From NCBI GenBank assembly GCA_937944145.1, contig CALDZK010000004.1, forward strand, positions 186,001 to 250,000: 64,000 nucleotides of DNA, read 5' to 3'. Of the stretch, positions 36,664 through 53,028 are shown in pieces (positions within the stretch are counted from its first letter, which is position 1; every line of letters starts with the position of its first letter). The stretch is from an uncultured Candidatus Altimarinota bacterium. GTDB lineage: Bacteria > Patescibacteriota > Gracilibacteria > BD1-5 > UBA6164. The translations under genes were made by a program, and so were the position numbers. The notes beneath the pieces are model-generated. The model was not told where the DNA came from. It worked only from the letters and a program-made list of their open reading frames with translations, and searched no databases.

Positions 36664-37359
36664 TTACGCTTTATCTGCGTCCATATCTATTCTGATACCA
36701 GGACCCATAGCGTTACACACTACTACAGAGTTGATATATTTCCCCTTTGCTCCAGTAGGTTTTACATCCTGGATAGTCTGTAGGAAAGATTCGAGATTTT
36801 GTTTGAGTTTATCTTTTCCAAAAGAGAGTTTTCCAAAGATAGAGTGAACATTTCCTTGTTTGTCTGTTTTGAATTCAAATTTCCCACCAGCGATTTCTGT
36901 AACAACAGCTACGAGATCTTCACCAACCGTTCCTGTTTTAGGATTTGGCATCAGTCCTTTTGGTCCGAGGACTCTTGCAATTTTCCCGAGGTGTCTCATC
37001 ATAGATGGAGTAGCAACACAGACATCAAAGTCGAGTGCTACTTTTCCAGACTCTATATCTGCGATAAGATCTTCACCACCAGCTACTTTTGCACCTGCTT
37101 TTTTGAGATCTGCTGCTGATACGCTATCAGAGAAAGCACAGATGTTTGGGACTTTCCCTGTTCCGTTTGGAAGCGTTGCAGTCGTTCTAATCATTTGATC
37201 TTGATGTTTTGGGTCAAGATTGAGATTAAAATGAATTTCTACTGTAGGGTCAAACTTTACCGTATTTGTTTGTTCGAGCAGCTCTACTGCTTCGTCCACT
37301 GAGTAGCTCATTCCTTCTTTGAGGAACTCTTGAGCTTTTCTATATTTTTTACCTGCCAT
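36664..37359 (-). CDS. rplA: 50S ribosomal protein L1 (uL1)
   Basis: 231 aa, no in-frame TGA. KYRKAQEFLKEGMSYSVDEA, HFNLNLDPKHQDQMIR, LPNGTGK, and the RNA-binding GPKGLMPNPKTGTV loop. L1-stalk protein and, in other bacteria, translational repressor of its own operon. rplK is not upstream; a 23S-like fragment is divergent instead. Confidence 0.97.
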   Translation of the reverse strand: MAGKKYRKAQEFLKEGMSYSVDEAVELLEQTNTVKFDPTVEIHFNLNLDPKHQDQMIRTTATLPNGTGKVPNICAFSDSVSAADLKKAGAKVAGGEDLIADIESGKVALDFDVCVATPSMMRHLGKIARVLGPKGLMPNPKTGTVGEDLVAVVTEIAGGKFEFKTDKQGNVHSIFGKLSFGKDKLKQNLESFLQTIQDVKPTGAKGKYINSVVVCNAMGPGIRIDMDADKA

Positions 37360-37513: not shown

Positions 37514-37710
37514 AACATGATACTATGAAGTATTCATGTACCGACGAAGGACGTAATACGCTGCGATAAGCGTTGGGGAGCTGCGAATAAGCTTTGATCC
37601 AGCGATTTCCGAATGGGGAAACCCAGCAACCCTATAATCAGGGAATTATTGCTATCTCAAGATAGATGGGAATTTACACATAACTTTTGTAGGAGGAAAC
37701 TCCTACTTTT
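37514..37710 (+). ncRNA. Stand-alone fragment related to the 5' domain of 23S rRNA
   Basis: From about 37536 the plus strand matches bacterial 23S domain I (E. coli about nt 50-200): CCGACGAAGGACG, CTGCGATAAGCGT and CGATTTCCGAATGGGGAAAC, ending with a degenerate GGGAATTTACACAT where 23S has GGGAACTGAAACAT. The universal GGTGGATGCC 5' end is absent, and the rest of 23S does not follow. Instead a local hairpin (CATGA.TACT/AGTA.TCATG) precedes and a strong terminator closes it. Either an rRNA remnant or a small RNA using an rRNA fold. Confidence 0.7.
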
Positions 37711-37714
37711 TTAT
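37687..37714 (+). terminator. Terminator of the 23S-like RNA
   Basis: GTAGGAG GAAA CTCCTAC followed by TTTTTTATTTT; the right edge overlaps the yidD stop on minus. Confidence 0.85.
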
Positions 37715-38003: not shown

Positions 38004-38600
38004 ATGATCGCATATATCTCTGGGAAAATACTCGATATCTCAGAAAACTCTGTACTTATCATGCCTCACAGTGGTGTTGGCTATGAAATAGCTATCAATG
38101 AACTGACCTATAGTAAAATAGCAACTCAGGAAGATGTCGATCTTTACCTCTACCATCATATATCAGAAGCGACTCAAGCTCTATATGGATTTGTAGAGAG
38201 AGAAGAAAAAAAAGTATTTCTCGAACTGATAAAAATATCTGGAATAGGAGGAAAAGTCGCACTCTCTATACTGTCTTTAGGAATAGACTATATCATCCAA
38301 GCTGTACAAAACGAGGACAAAGCAGCAGTAGAGCAGATAAAGGGAATCGGGAAAAAGATGGCAGAGAAAATCATCCTCGAACTCAAGGATAAAGACTTTA
38401 TCAAAACAGCTCTTGTAGGCACTCCAAAAACAAGTACAGTCCAGACACAACTCCCACCATCACTGATTGAAAATATCAAATCAACTCTGACAAATATGGG
38501 ATACAGACCAAGAGATATAGACAGAGTTCTCACACAAATTCCGAGTGATATAGACAGCCCTGAGGCTATTCTATCGTATATGATAAAAGAACTCAGTTAG
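38004..38600 (+). CDS. ruvA: Holliday junction DNA helicase subunit RuvA
   Basis: 198 aa. OB domain with MIAYISGKI and GVGYEI, HVx-like HHISEATQALYGF, two helix-hairpin-helix motifs (KISGIGGKVALSIL and IKGIGKKMAEKIILEL), and the C-terminal domain III that contacts RuvB. ruvB is not adjacent; tyrA follows by 1 nt. Confidence 0.96.
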   Translation: MIAYISGKILDISENSVLIMPHSGVGYEIAINELTYSKIATQEDVDLYLYHHISEATQALYGFVEREEKKVFLELIKISGIGGKVALSILSLGIDYIIQAVQNEDKAAVEQIKGIGKKMAEKIILELKDKDFIKTALVGTPKTSTVQTQLPPSLIENIKSTLTNMGYRPRDIDRVLTQIPSDIDSPEAILSYMIKELS

Positions 38601-45082: not shown

Positions 45083-48000
45083 ATGTATAACCATCAAGAA
45101 ATAGAAAAAAAATGGCAAAATTATTGGCAAGAGCATAATACTTTTAAGACAAGTAATACTTCACTCAAACCAAAATACTATGTTCTGGATATGTTTCCAT
45201 ATCCAAGTGGGGCTGGTCTCCATGTAGGGCATCCAGAGGGATACACAGCAAACGATATTGTAGCGAGACACAAGCACGCAACAGGACACAATGTCCTCCA
45301 TCCTATGGGATGGGACGCTTTTGGTTTGCCTGCAGAAAACTACGCAATAAAGACCGGAACACACCCGAGAATCACCACTGATGAAAATATTGCGACTTTT
45401 AAATGTCAGATACAATCACTGGGATTTTCCTATGATTGGGAGAGAGAAATAGACACTACGGATCCAAAGTATTTCCAGTGGACGCAGTGGATTTTTCTCA
45501 AACTTTTTGAGCAAGGATTGGCTTATGAGCAAGATCTTCCTATCAATTATTGTCCGAGTTGTAAAACGGGACTTGCAAATGAAGAGGTTCTAGGAGATTT
45601 TAGTTGTGAGAGATGTGGAACCACGGTAGAAAAGAAAAAGATTCGTCAGTGGGTTCTTGCTATTACTAAGTATGCAGAGAGACTTCTGGCAGATGTAGAT
45701 GATCTCGATTGGCCAGAGGGAATCAAGGATATGCAAAGAAACTGGATCGGAAAGAGCGAGGGATGTGAGTTTGAGCTCAAAAAAGTAGATGATGCAAAAA
45801 AATCAATACGTGTATACACAACCCGTGTTGATACAGTTTTTGGTATGACCTATTGTGTCATCGCTCCTGATCATCCACATGTACAAGATTTTATAGAAGA
45901 TTCTCACAGAACAGAATGTGACACATATATAGACAAAGCAAATCATGAATCTGACCAAGACAGAACAGCAGATGACAAAGAAAAAACGGGAGTTTTTACA
46001 GGGAGCTATATGATCAACCCGTATAACGGAGAAGAAGTACCTCTCTGGATAGCAGACTATGTCCTTGGAAACTATGGAACTGGAGCTGTTATGGCTGTAC
46101 CGGCTCATGATGAGAGGGACTGGGAGTTTGCGAAGAAGTATGGTATCGAGATAAAATGTGTAATCGAGACTGAGTATGCTACTCGACCTGTAAACTGAGT
46201 TACTTTTTGAAGTTCTCCTCAAAGTTTTTGAAAATATTGTGAACAACTCGATTCTCTTCCTCCATTTCTTTCTTCTAAATCGGAAGGAGCTAGAGTAGTC
46301 AATTCTTGAAAATATAATTGATTAAATATAAAGGAAGCTCAGAAGAAGTTTACCAAACTCGCAGAAGAAAAATGATTTGGACATAAAAAAGTGAACTACA
46401 AACTCCGTGACTGGCTCTTTTCTCGTCAGAGATACTGGGGAGAACCAATTCCACTTATCCACTTAGAGAGAGATGGTGTGAGAGCGTTACCGAGAATTAC
46501 ATCACTGAGTGACAGTATGGAGAGTTGAAGAGCGTATGTGCTAAAAAGTCCCCCTCCTAACCCCCCCCTAGCAGGGGAGGGACAATCTGTATGAGAAGAT
46601 GTAGCTACTTCTCTCCTGTCAGGGGGAGATAGAGAGGGGACTGACTCTCGAACTCTCTGCTCCAAATGACAAACAAAATCCCTCGTAATAGACGGAAAAA
46701 TAGTCTCAAAGATATACTCAGGAATCTATACAGATATCATTTGCGATTATGACCTGCCTCTCGAACTCCCACAAGTAGATGAATACCAACCAGCAGGAGA
46801 TGGAACATCACCACTTACAAAAGTAGATGATTTTGTACAAGTATCACTCGCAGACAACCTGATAGGAAAAAGAGAAACCAATACTATGCCTCAATGGGGA
46901 GGAAGCTGTTGGTATTACCTTAGATTTATGGATAATAAAAATCCAGATGATTTGGTGGGGAGAACCATCGAAAATTATTGGGGAAGTGTAGATAGTTATG
47001 TAGGAGGTGCAGAACATGCTGTTCTTCACTTGCTCTATGCACGTTTTTGGCATAAGTTCTTATTTGATATAGGAGTGGTTTCTACTACAGAACCATTTTA
47101 TAGACTCAGAAATCAGGGGATGATTCTCGGGATGAGTTATAGAAATAGTAAATGAAAACTCATAGCAAGTGATATGGTTGAAGAAAAAGCAGGAAAGTAT
47201 ATAGATACAGAAACAGGTGAGGAACTCGAAAAAATACCTGCAAAGATGAGTAAATCACTCAAAAATGTTATCAATCCTGATGAAATTGTTTCTCAGTATG
47301 GAGCTGACACCCTTAGACTCTATGAGATGTATATGGCTGATTTCAAAGATGCAGCTCCATGGGATACTACAGCTATTGTTGGAGTGAGAAGACTCCTAGA
47401 TAAAGTATATAAACTCTTTATAGAAGAAAATGGAAAACAGTCAGACAACGACGATGAAGCGATGAAGACGATTCATAAAGCTACTAAAAAAATAGGAGAA
47501 GATATAGAAAACTATAAATTCAACACAGCTATCGCGCAACTGATGATCTGTATGAATACGGGAGAACCTACTGATACTGAGAAAAAAACTCAGTGGAGGA
47601 GTATGTTTATCAGACTGCTACACCCATTTGCTCCACATATGGCAGAGGAGTGTTGGGAAAAAATAGCATCCCCAACACAGCAATATGATAAGATATATTT
47701 TGCTACTGGAAACACTGCAAAGATCGAAAGAGCACAGAAGCTCCTCTCACAAATCAATCCAGATGCAATTATAGAAAAGTATAGCGGTATCATCGATGTA
47801 GAAGAAACAGCGCAGACACCACTTGCATGTGCTCTTCAGAAGCTCGAAGTATACAAATCAAAAGATATTGATGCTCCTATAGCAGTTGCAGATACAGCTG
47901 TATATTTCGAAAATGCAGATTTCGACTTTGAACCTACAAAGGTAAAGAGAACGGCACTAGAACTTGCTGGAAAAAAGGAATCAGATCTATCAGTCGAAGA

Positions 48001-48553
48001 AGTTGCGGAGCTAATGATAGGCTACTATCAACAAAAAGCTCAAGAGGCAGGTGGAAGTCTCGAGTATTACTATATAGATAGTTGGGCTGTTTTATATCCA
48101 AATGGAGAAATAAAGACCTTTGAATATAGGAGAGAGTACACACTGACAGATGAGAGGCAAGGAGAGCTGAAACCATATTTTCCTATGGCTAGTCTCTATA
48201 TATCAAAATACACAGGAAAAAGATTACACGAATCAACAGATGAAGATTTCTTTGTAGAATTTGCAGGGCAGAGCGAGGCTCTAAAAGAATTATTTTGATA
48301 CCAAGATGCTTCGGTATTTTTTGCTCCATGGCCAGAGTATGATGAAAACTTGGTTGTTGATAATGAAATCACTATCGGAGTACAGGTCCTTGGAAAACTC
48401 AGAGGAGAGATCATGATAGCAGTAGATGAGTCAAAAGACAGCGTACTGCAAAAAGCAAAAACCAATGAAAATGTTGCGAAGTGGCTTGAAGGGAAGCAAC
48501 TCGTAAAAGAGATATATGTACCAGGGAAGATTGTTAATTTAGTGGTAAAATAA
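45083..48553 (+). CDS. leuS: Leucyl-tRNA synthetase with HAM1-like insertion
   Basis: 1156 aa versus about 820-880 usually. Class Ia signatures: [12 protein letters not shown] (HVGH 47-50), zinc-binding CPSC..CERCG, CP1 editing [43 protein letters not shown] at 721-725, and the end [20 protein letters not shown]. Extra length: residues about 489-520 encoded by a palindromic element, a TGA-dense stretch near 372-402, and residues about 866-1071 forming an NTP-pyrophosphatase-like domain between the anticodon-binding helices and the C-terminal part. One continuous frame with no TAA or TAG. Confidence 0.95.
46547..46642 (+). repeat. Palindromic element inserted in-frame in leuS
   Basis: 96 nt (exactly 32 codons). 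AGTCCCC (46547) pairs perfectly with GGGGACT (46636). Inner hairpins: CCCCC..GGGGAGG, GAGAAG/CTTCTC and TCTCC/GGGGAGA. Same closing-stem plus three-hairpin plan as 31032-31130. Encodes [17 protein letters not shown] and further residues, the same SP-P-P-GEG style as in sufC and sufS. Confidence 0.8.
47680..48297 (+). other. HAM1/RdgB-like NTP pyrophosphatase domain inside leuS
   Basis: About 205 codons. [19 protein letters not shown] matches the RdgB/HAM1 start (ATGN-x2-K-x2-E/R). [16 protein letters not shown] matches the EET..T..A..K helix region, and [12 protein letters not shown] matches the catalytic PxxADDSGL strand with the second Asp changed to Thr. The FGYDPIF motif is replaced by [10 protein letters not shown]. 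Flanking LeuRS sequence (MAEECWEKI before, [10 protein letters not shown] after) would be contiguous without it. Confidence 0.75.
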
Positions 48554-50403: not shown

Positions 50404-50976
50404 TTATTCTTTAACTACTCCTAGCACTTTTTGGAGAATCTCTTCAGGAGACTGTGTAGCATCTATGATATGGTCGCAGTATTTGTGTGCTTGTTCACGT
50501 TCAAACGAACTACTTTCTATACGATTTGCTATATCCTCAGGTTTTCCCTCAGGATTTCTCTCGTAGAAACGACGCTGCATCTCATGGTTTGGGACATCCA
50601 GAAAGAAAGAAGTATAGTTCTCTCTAAAGTCAGGATGGTTTTTTATGAGTTGTTTGAGTCCTTTGGTGTCTATTTCTTTGATCATGATTTTTCATGCTGC
50701 GAGCCCCTGTTCTACTTCTGATTTTTTTGTGCCATAGTAGGCAACTTTGTGGTTGATTTCGTATTCCAAGAAATCATTTTGTGAGATGCCATGCTCGAAT
50801 TCTTCCTTGGTGATAAACCAGTAAATATCTCCATCGACCTCTCCAGGACGCATGTCTCTGGTGACGTAAGATTTGAGAAACTCTAGGCTTTGTTCTCCTT
50901 GTTGTTCTAGATTTTTCCTGAGAGTTCCTTTTCCCCCTCAGGAGACTCACATAATGAAGTAGAGATGTCAGGTCAC
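50404..50976 (-). CDS. gmk: Guanylate kinase
   Basis: 190 aa. P-loop IMGVSGGGKGTLRK (three Gly by TGA), SYVTRDMRPGEVDGDIYWFI (GMP-binding Ser/Arg region), FLEYEINHKVAYYGT, and the lid/C terminus with ANRIESSSFERE. Phosphorylates GMP to GDP. Start taken as GTG 50976, giving 10 residues before the P-loop strand; ATG 50952 would begin directly at the P-loop and is less likely. Confidence 0.9.
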
Positions 50977-51106: not shown

Positions 51107-51134
51107 TTGACAAATACATATTTTTTCATAATAT
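51107..51134 (+). promoter_or_regulatory. Promoter of the 580-nt structured RNA
   Basis: Consensus TTGACA (51107-51112), 16-nt spacer, TAATAT (51129-51134); predicted start near 51141. Surroundings are A/T-rich with an AAAAATTTTT-like upstream tract. Confidence 0.7.
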
Positions 51135-51140
51135 CCTGTA

Positions 51141-51720
51141 ACCAAATTTAGATTTCAGATTTGAGAGGTAGGGAGGAAATATACCTCTCATCTAACTGAG
51201 ATCTTGTATGTGGGATCAGTGGAAAATTTTTGGGAGGAAACTTCCACTGATCCCTTTGGAGAAAAGAATTTATATCAAGGTCCTTACCTGCTACAGGACC
51301 TTGGCCAGGGGAGTACGCCTCCAGCCCATTCCACCTGGCACTTTTTCCCTCTAGTATATTTATTTTAGGTATTAGAGGGCCTCATGGGAAGGGGCGAATT
51401 TTTCCTAGGAGGTGAGTTTAGGTAGGTTTCTAATCCATTCCTACCTTCGAAGAGCCTACCCCCTCTCAACAATTCGTTGAGGCTCTTCGTAAAATTCCCT
51501 CAGGTATGTCCAGGTTCGCCGCATCTCCTGGGTGCCTGAGGGAGAGCAGGAAATGATAGGAAAAAAGTGGCCTCCTCGTACCACTTCCTATTCATTTCCT
51601 GCTCACTGATTTTTCTCCGAGTAAAATTAATTTACTTGGAGAGGAAAAGAGAACACAGGTATGGCGTTTCTCTTGATCTCATCATTATAAAAAGCACCCT
51701 GCATTTGCAGGGCTTTTTTG
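51141..51720 (+). ncRNA. Large multi-hairpin structured RNA of unknown family
   Basis: No ORF, but a near-continuous run of strong hairpins. Left arms start at 51162 (9 bp, loop with GGGAGGAAA), 51212 (13 bp, loop again GGGAGGAAA), 51276 (9 bp), 51304 (6 bp), 51348 (7 bp), 51421 (6 bp), 51448 (10 bp), 51497 (8 bp plus inner 5 bp), 51544 (13+6+5 bp, loop CCTCCTCGTA), 51615 (11 bp) and 51647 (8 bp), then terminator CCCTGC/GCAGGG with T-run. Local GC is higher than its surroundings. I see none of the conserved cores of RNase P RNA, tmRNA, SRP RNA or 6S. Confidence 0.75.
51692..51720 (+). terminator. Terminator of the large structured RNA
   Basis: AAAGCACCCTGC ATTT GCAGGGCTTTTTT: CCCTGC/GCAGGG stem followed by a T-run. 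Confidence 0.88.
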
Positions 51721-51772: not shown

Positions 51773-52034
51773 CTTAAGAATTTTTGGAAAGTTACCCGTG
51801 AGTGAGTGGTGATAGAGTGTTTCTCTCCCTATAGTAATCTCTATTGCCACTCACTCGAACTTTCATTAGTTCAAAAATAAAAACATAATAATATGAATTT
51901 AAAGGTATCTTTTTCTCCTCCCTGGTACCTTTGAACCTAGAGTAATTCTAGGGATGACATATTCTAAGATGACCATTTATGGTTTGTTTTAGATATGTTA
52001 CTAACTTGCCGGTCTTTATGACCGGCTTTTTTTT
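51773..52034 (+). ncRNA. Second structured RNA
   Basis: Long arm: GAAAGTT (51787)/AACTTTC (51858), then GAGTGAGTGG (51800)/CCACTCACTC (51847), then ATAGAG (51812)/CTCTAT (51839). Next AAAGGTA (51901)/TACCTTT (51926), CCTAGA (51936)/TCTAGG (51947), and a terminator GCCGGTC/GACCGGC with eight T. About 260 nt, no ORF. The long first arm is 6S-like in style but too short; family unknown. Confidence 0.65.
52006..52034 (+). terminator. Terminator of the second structured RNA
   Basis: GCCGGTC TTTAT GACCGGC TTTTTTTT. Confidence 0.92.
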
Positions 52035-52058
52035 ATATCTCTTATTTCATACCTTTAT

Positions 52059-52330
52059 AATTATAAGTATCTCTGTCAAAAGTATGATTGGAGGATATAA
52101 AACGTTTTGTTAGTTCTTGAGGGTTTGCAGCTCTCTGTTACGTAACTTTTAGCTAAATACCCCAGGGCACTATCTCTTGACTCTTAGAGTCAATTCACCT
52201 TGAGTTACGCAAAAGCTTTAAGGGACTTCGTACCCTTAAAAATCCTTGAAGCTATGGTTTGGTATTGCATTTATACCACTATGCTTGTGAGGTACGATTT
52301 GTAGTTTTGTTTCTTGCTTTGTAAAAGTTC
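52059..52330. other. Third structured intergenic stretch, orientation unclear
   Basis: No ORF. CGTAACT (52141) pairs with AGTTACG (52203) and encloses TTGACTC-TTA-GAGTCAA (52177-52193); then TTTAAGGG (52217)/CCCTTAAA (52233) and TGGTAT (52260)/ATACCA (52273). No clear terminator on either strand. It may be a third RNA gene or the 3' untranslated region of the minus gene that stops at 52381. Confidence 0.45.
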
Positions 52331-52380: not shown

Positions 52381-53028
52381 TTACTCTTCTTTTATTTCTA
52401 ACTCAGATACTATTGTCTGTACAGCCTCAAAAGTTTCTTTGGAAAATCATAATACATTAATATTATCATCTATTCACTTTACACTATTTGCATCAAATAG
52501 AAAGCTTATCCATTTTTCTTCTTTCGTGGTAACTATGTTATTAGGTATAGGTCTTTGAGTAGAAGGATTTACAGGAATTCACATTATTGAAACTCCTGCT
52601 CAAAAAGTAACTCCACTTCACCAACTTACAGATCAACCTCAATTTCATGATACAGTTACTCTAGTTTCTTCTATTCTTTTTTGTGGTATTAAACAAAGAT
52701 GTTTATATCAATTGTTAATTAAGTTTAAATTCTTTGATATATTATTGTTATATGGTTGAAACTTCTCCACACATTCTAATATTTTTCAATTAAGTAATTG
52801 TACTGATTTTTTAAAGTCTTTCTTGGAATTTCTCATAGGAAAATTTCATTTTTGCCCCTTATATTTCCATGCATAATCTAGTATAGATTTTATATTTCAA
52901 TAAAAATCCTTTAAATCTAATATTAAATTATCTGGAATTTCTTTCTTTTCTAAGAGAGCATAATACTCGCCTTCAATTTGATTTAATAATCCTTGGTTTC
53001 TTTTGATTAGTAAAAATATATCTCTCAT
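52381..53028 (-). CDS. Hypothetical accessory protein
   Basis: 215 aa with thirteen TGA-Gly. Helical N-terminal half (NQGLLNQIEGEYYALLEK), a Gly-rich beta-like middle (SWGSGVTFGAGVSIMGIPVN) and a C-terminal half with TKEEKWISFLFDAN. The middle-to-end pattern recalls a widespread family of roughly 200-residue uncharacterised accessory proteins, but I cannot name it. Codon use is AT-rich (TTA Leu). Lies beside the structured-RNA block. Confidence 0.7.

Follow-up and report, generated by a model that had tools for sequence, protein, structure and literature searches.

What is a dense row of hairpins, 580 nt long, doing in a CPR genome, and where did it come from? The locus lies in a window of 64,000 nt (C4:186001-250000) from a CPR genome of 1.18 Mb in 18 contigs; all coordinates below are positions in this window unless another contig is named. 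TGA is read as glycine in the owner's genes, gmk alone holding four such codons, and the owner is a tiny and probably host-dependent bacterium.

Genomic setting and structure of the RNA

The RNA is placed between gmk and a gene that adjoins dnaK (Table 1), and an ORF scan of the roughly 1.4 kb between them found no credible ORF. A coding explanation for 51141-51720 itself was dropped, because both a credible ORF (with TGA as glycine) and a Pfam match were absent. The upstream neighbours of gmk differ among the relatives inspected by synteny comparison, and a DNA search for homologues of the 580-nt RNA found none in the genus, in the order (77 genomes), in phages or in plasmids, the short order-wide matches being either AT-rich or within a dispersed repeat. 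One copy of this repeat lies at 52110-52255; contig C7 of the owner has it too, and so do many genomes of the family. As a separate observation, a leucyl-tRNA synthetase-like ORF (45083-48553) appears by eye to carry a Ham1/ITPase-like insert in its C-terminal half. An Rfam scan of 165 kb more of the genome, beyond the window, returned tRNAs and RNase P only.

Table 1. Positions of the RNA features, their parts and the flanking genes in the window
Feature	Position	Strand	Basis or remark
23S rRNA domain-I-like segment	37542-37625 (RNA about 37528-37712)	+	RF02541 positions 48-178
gmk	50404-50976	minus	Flanks the RNA locus
Promoter-like TTGACA-16-TAATAT	51107-51134	+	Consensus scan, 10/12 matches
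580-nt non-coding RNA, about 12 hairpins	51141-51720	+	Folding z-score, hairpin density
Hairpin 1, loop GGGAGGAAATA, SD-like	51162-51190	+	Sequence, hairpin scan
Hairpin 2, 13-bp perfect stem, loop AATTTTTGGGAGGAAAC, SD-like	51212-51254	+	Hairpin scan
Hairpins 3-7	51275-51446	+	No relatives found
Hairpin 8, loop ACCCCCTCTCAACAATTCGTTG	51448-51489	+	Hairpin scan
Hairpins 9-10, EcpR1 module (SL1 and SL2)	51494-51608	+	RF02500
SL1, loop UUCGCCGCAUCU (Hyphomicrobiales: UCCGCCGCAUCU)	51495-51541	+	11/12 loop positions as in the Hyphomicrobiales majority
SL2, loop motif GGCCUCCUCGUACC	51544-51604	+	Identical to Phyllobacteriaceae-type EcpR1
Hairpin 11	51610-51646	+	Hairpin scan
Intrinsic terminator CCCTGCATTTGCAGGG-CTTTTTT	51697-51719	+	Sequence scan
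Second structured RNA, own terminator 52008-52034	51780-52036	+	z = -9.5 over 51735-52080
Gene without assigned product, next to dnaK	52381-53028	minus	Flanks the RNA locus on the other side

The minimum free energy (MFE) of 51141-51720 is -244.6 kcal/mol, whereas dinucleotide shuffles give -168.2 +/- 6.6 (z = -11.6) and none of 100 folds as stably; the opposite strand is nearly equal in structure, as expected for hairpins. A genome-wide scan counted seven perfect stems of at least 10 bp per 600 nt here and four at the next best place, so that this is the most hairpin-dense stretch in the 1.18-Mb genome. The earlier note was therefore right that a CPR genome here holds a long, autonomous-looking and extremely structured RNA that is non-coding. 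The longest stem is the near-perfect hairpin of about 23 bp at 51544-51604. The MFE fold is chiefly a row of local hairpins. The same note had bounded the RNA by a consensus promoter and a clean terminator, and both are predicted here: terminators in the region are clearly commoner than in shuffled sequence, whereas promoter-like sites are only moderately so (seven found and 3.9 expected), and the promoter at 51107-51134 is for this reason only plausible. The sequence just upstream of the RNA has a GC content of 15%, and the flanks are AT-rich.

An EcpR1 module within the hairpin array

EcpR1 has been described as a cell-cycle-controlling sRNA of the Rhizobiales, and its members are recognised by an SL1 core (C16-G36) that is identical in all of them and by an SL2 that follows directly after SL1. 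Although the earlier note had placed the RNA in no recognised family, Rfam matches 51494-51608 to RF02500 (Atu_C6/EcpR1) with 84.3 bits, against a gathering score of 60. The match goes beyond fold, because both conserved EcpR1 loops are there in sequence, as AGGUUCGCCGCAUCUCCUG in SL1 and as AGUGGCCUCCUCGUACC in SL2. An independent covariance model, for which 55 Hyphomicrobiales EcpR1 sequences were aligned and the window copy was left out, gave a single match in the whole CPR genome (51490-51615, 85.3 bits, E = 1e-15), and this score falls inside the range of 83-119 bits that Hyphomicrobiales members reach under the same model. The Rfam hit to a known RNA that the earlier note had named as refuting its reading is thereby present for 115 of the 580 nt; hairpins 1-8 have sub-threshold matches only in Rfam.

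When it is aligned with the Hyphomicrobiales sequences, the window copy forms a standard pair at each of the 23 consensus pairs, those of SL2 included; in nine of the 23, both bases differ from the pair that is commonest in Hyphomicrobiales. Agreement with the commonest Hyphomicrobiales base is found at 26 of 46 paired positions and at 11 of 12 positions of the SL1 loop. Across the alignment, which was fitted to the model and so favours the structure, 98.3% of cells are paired and 0/500 shuffles reach the observed covariation. The covariation that had been proposed as a check is accordingly strong in the EcpR1 part, the sole part with homologues. Stems rewritten with fold and loops kept look like the result of selection on a working RNA.

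The SL1 core of the window copy differs from EcpR1 by a single C-to-U change in an otherwise invariant loop. The same U occurs in a Hoeflea MAG (L168), in which the SL2 motif is not recognisable. The SL2 in the window is of the GUACC type found in Mesorhizobium, Aquibium, Nitratireductor and genera like them. It is also with this group that the module as a whole is most identical, at about 63%.

By its sequence and fold, then, the segment 51494-51608 is an EcpR1-family module. It shares with EcpR1/SmelC291/Atu_C6 (RF02500) a GC-rich SL1 loop, a variable SL2 stem with a UCCUCG loop, the tandem order and spacing of SL1 and SL2, the trailing U tract and an in-range covariance score. The whole RNA is not filed as an EcpR1 gene, because EcpR1 is a free gene with a 101-142-nt transcript, promoter and terminator of its own, whereas the window copy forms hairpins 9-10 of a 580-nt array, with another hairpin and then the terminator at 51697 after it and the best promoter-like site about 390 nt upstream of it. 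A further reason is that EcpR1 is hosted by Hyphomicrobiales and typically sits near divK-pleD/rpmG, whereas this RNA belongs to a code-25 CPR bacterium and has gmk and dnaK nearby instead.

Distribution and probable source of the module

A scan with AGGTNCGCCGCATCTCCTG over one genome per species found at least 119 stretches, and among the 80 matches listed nearly all belong to Hyphomicrobiales or their alphaproteobacterial relatives. The one clear outsider among those listed, Lachnospiraceae JC7, was rejected as a chance match to the SL1 motif without SL2. Neither 45 other genomes of the owner's family nor 379 others of its phylum have RF02500, and the SL1 14-mer CGCCGCATCTCCTG occurs once elsewhere in the class (353 genomes), in an unrelated context. 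Since no relative among those searched has the module, its simplest account looks like horizontal capture from Hyphomicrobiales. The other hairpins gave scattered, chance-level matches to 45 Hyphomicrobiales genomes, none of them consistent.

EcpR1 is also found on viral sequence. One contig (IMGVR 3300033233_000697, here L339) carries a complete EcpR1 at 893-1012, scoring 78.8 bits with Rfam and 91.4 bits in a separate search, between an ORF in the terminase position, which ends at 891, and a portal gene of Mu type, which starts at 1027. Another (L341, 5170-5284) has an SL1-like hairpin with the exact EcpR1 loop at 33.8 bits, its E-value being too good as the contig was picked for the motif; a long stem follows, and the SL2 loop is missing. 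Phages could be vectors of the EcpR1 module or fellow users of it. On a further contig (L388:4994-5035), a 12-bp perfect hairpin with the loop TTCGCCGCATCT lies antisense to the end of a phage N6-methylase-like gene; its loop in the sense direction is the complement of the EcpR1 loop, a possible decoy known from this one case.

Two further structured RNAs in the window

A second structured RNA follows downstream of the 580-nt RNA, and in Rfam it has sub-threshold matches only. Its loops are TTTCTCTCCCTATAG and TTTTTCTCCTCCCT, the latter anti-SD-like. Among the alphaproteobacterial sRNAs with anti-Shine-Dalgarno loops are alpha-r14/NfeR1 and the cuckoo RNAs; hairpin B of the second RNA, with the C-rich loop CTCCTCCC, resembles these, a resemblance only and without an Rfam match. 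Hairpins 1-2 of the 580-nt RNA display GGGAGGAAA, and CCTCCT/CTCCTCCC is displayed by hairpin 10 as well as by the second RNA. The TCCTCCC of the second RNA is perfectly complementary over 7 nt to the GGGAGGA that hairpins 1 and 2 carry in their loops, which suggests loop-loop pairing between the two RNAs.

Some 14 kb upstream, the window holds a free-standing piece that resembles domain I of 23S rRNA, in the gap between ORFs 36664-37359 and 38004-38600 (rplA-like and ruvA-like by eye), with a hairpin-T6 terminator read from the sequence at its 3' side (about 37688-37712). Over 84 nt, the piece is 92.9% identical to Rhizobium/Pararhizobium 23S, compared with 78% to E. coli 23S and 72-77% to the 23S of the owner's family; it is the sole piece from that 23S region found in the assembly. 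In many Rhizobiales, the 23S is cut near helix 9, giving a 5.8S-like RNA, and the likeness stops near this helix, about where alphaproteobacterial sequences diverge after GGGGAAACCCA. The piece is possibly a second host-derived RNA mimic.

Candidate targets in the owner and in Hyphomicrobiales

In S. meliloti, loop 1 of EcpR1 represses gcrA and dnaA by pairing (PMC4414408). In the owner genome, dnaA is present and gcrA is absent, and the SL1 loop has no complement longer than 9 nt outside the locus, a length that 300/300 shuffled loops at least equal. Among 1004 translation-initiation regions (TIRs) of the owner, eight form predicted duplexes with the window loop at -12 kcal/mol or better, against 16.7 for shuffled loops, and a few reach -15 kcal/mol. 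SD sites are scarce as well: GGAGG or AGGAG precedes fewer than 1% of 597 first-ATG starts, as judged with E. coli as the positive control (17 starts only), Hyphomicrobiales fragments being unfit for this, since at high GC the first ATG is an unreliable guide to the start. Eight members of the family (L280-L287) end their 16S with GGACTATCTCCTTA, where GGATCACCTCCTT is usual, and thus have a variant anti-SD tail; the owner's 16S was not found in the assembly.

Among Hyphomicrobiales, 13 of 21 gcrA loci have an exact site of the ATGCGGCGGA/GTGCGGCGGA type, which lies about 100-113 nt before the start. With this gcrA leader site, the window loop is predicted to pair at about -17.2 kcal/mol, which 1-5 of 200 shuffled loops equal, and with the Tianweitania gcrA site GCGGCGAAC it is predicted to pair better than the EcpR1 loop itself. 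The corresponding test for dnaA was weak and not significant (a median of 15 in 100 shuffled loops did as well), and SL1 is constant even where no gcrA site can be recognised. These pairing predictions show the owner to be a poor source of targets and the gcrA leaders of Hyphomicrobiales to be a good predicted fit.

Origin and possible role of the RNA

We propose, with a confidence that is evenly balanced, that the 580-nt RNA is a composite antisense RNA, built as a hairpin array, whose complete EcpR1 module was taken over from Hyphomicrobiales. The 23S-like RNA of Hyphomicrobiales type in the same window and the phage contig that carries EcpR1 also speak for it. Most likely, as in EcpR1, stable stems would hold short single-stranded loops exposed for pairing, and by inference from EcpR1 these loops would base-pair with the 5' regions of mRNAs, leading to a translation block or decay. 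Selection may further have kept the loops because they pair with mRNAs in a partner cell from the Hyphomicrobiales, such as that of gcrA at its leader, by which the partner's cell cycle would be slowed. We favour this direction with a lower confidence, well below even, because the SL1 loop is retained in an owner that has neither gcrA nor an extended complementary site. The transcription, antisense action, host direction and delivery of the 580-nt RNA are inferences, and we know of no route by which RNA would leave a CPR cell and enter another bacterium. Several points weigh against the proposal: the constancy of SL1 may be due to something other than gcrA, such as a protein, possibly one that the CPR cell has as well; pairing may need no more than seeds of 7-9 nt, and the owner's own genome does offer these; the dnaA pairing test is weak; and the other hairpins have no consistent Hyphomicrobiales match.

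The most probable alternative is one in which an EcpR1 of Hyphomicrobiales origin has been domesticated and acts in trans on the CPR bacterium's own mRNAs, through short seeds or protein binding. We consider this a serious candidate but a doubtful one. It would be the usual mode of action of an sRNA, and it fits the promoter-like and terminator sites of the RNA's own, the compensatory changes that keep the pairs and the few TIRs of its own that reach -15 kcal/mol, yet it has to contend with an SL1 loop that finds no complement beyond 9 nt, with strong TIR duplexes fewer than for shuffled loops, with SD motifs before so few starts and with the missing gcrA.

The module might also be a relic, acquired by accident, for example through a phage shared with Hyphomicrobiales, and left unused within an unrelated hairpin array. 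A phage contig with EcpR1 does exist (L339), but 20 of 46 paired positions have changed while 23 of 23 pairs and nearly all loop letters are kept; as neutral drift would break both pairs and loops, we hold this reading to be improbable.

More improbable still is the kinship that the earlier note had proposed with large ornate RNAs, under which the RNA would found a new family of the OLE/GOLLD/ROOL kind, its EcpR1 likeness being secondary. It is like those RNAs in length and stability (PMC12286853), and kissing contacts would be possible between the SD-like loops of hairpins 1-2 and the anti-SD-like loops of hairpin 10 and of the second RNA. Unlike them, it folds chiefly into local hairpins and lacks homologues in which a covarying multi-branched core or conserved inter-subunit contacts could be seen (none by DNA search of 77 genomes from the order), and the covariance models of OLE, GOLLD and ROOL gave no match at gathering score or at E<=10, so that the kinship is unsupported. 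An assembly chimera or Hyphomicrobiales contamination is scarcely credible, for although the genome is a MAG and the loops are of Hyphomicrobiales type, the match is confined to loops and structure, the stems, AT-rich flanks and neighbours with TGA as glycine are those of the CPR genome, and none of the other Hyphomicrobiales fragments examined matches the genome at the DNA level.

Implications for the owner and its possible partner

If the composite RNA did capture its module from Hyphomicrobiales, an RNA regulator would have been transferred across phyla into an owner with another genetic code and few SD sites, which would be a rare case. Parts of the RNA hint at having moved from a likely partner. 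A broader reading, which we consider unlikely, is that the CPR bacterium lives on Hyphomicrobiales as an episymbiont or predator and encodes RNA effectors that mimic its host, and that phages of the same hosts captured EcpR1 independently; the array with its EcpR1 module, together with the mimic of the 5' (5.8S-like) part of 23S, would then interfere with the cell cycle and the ribosomes of the host. Should the loops serve a partner rather than the owner, this would point to RNA-mediated manipulation between bacteria. To our knowledge, the hosts of most Gracilibacteria-like CPR bacteria have yet to be named, and the presence of two Hyphomicrobiales-type RNAs in one window makes Hyphomicrobiales a testable host candidate.
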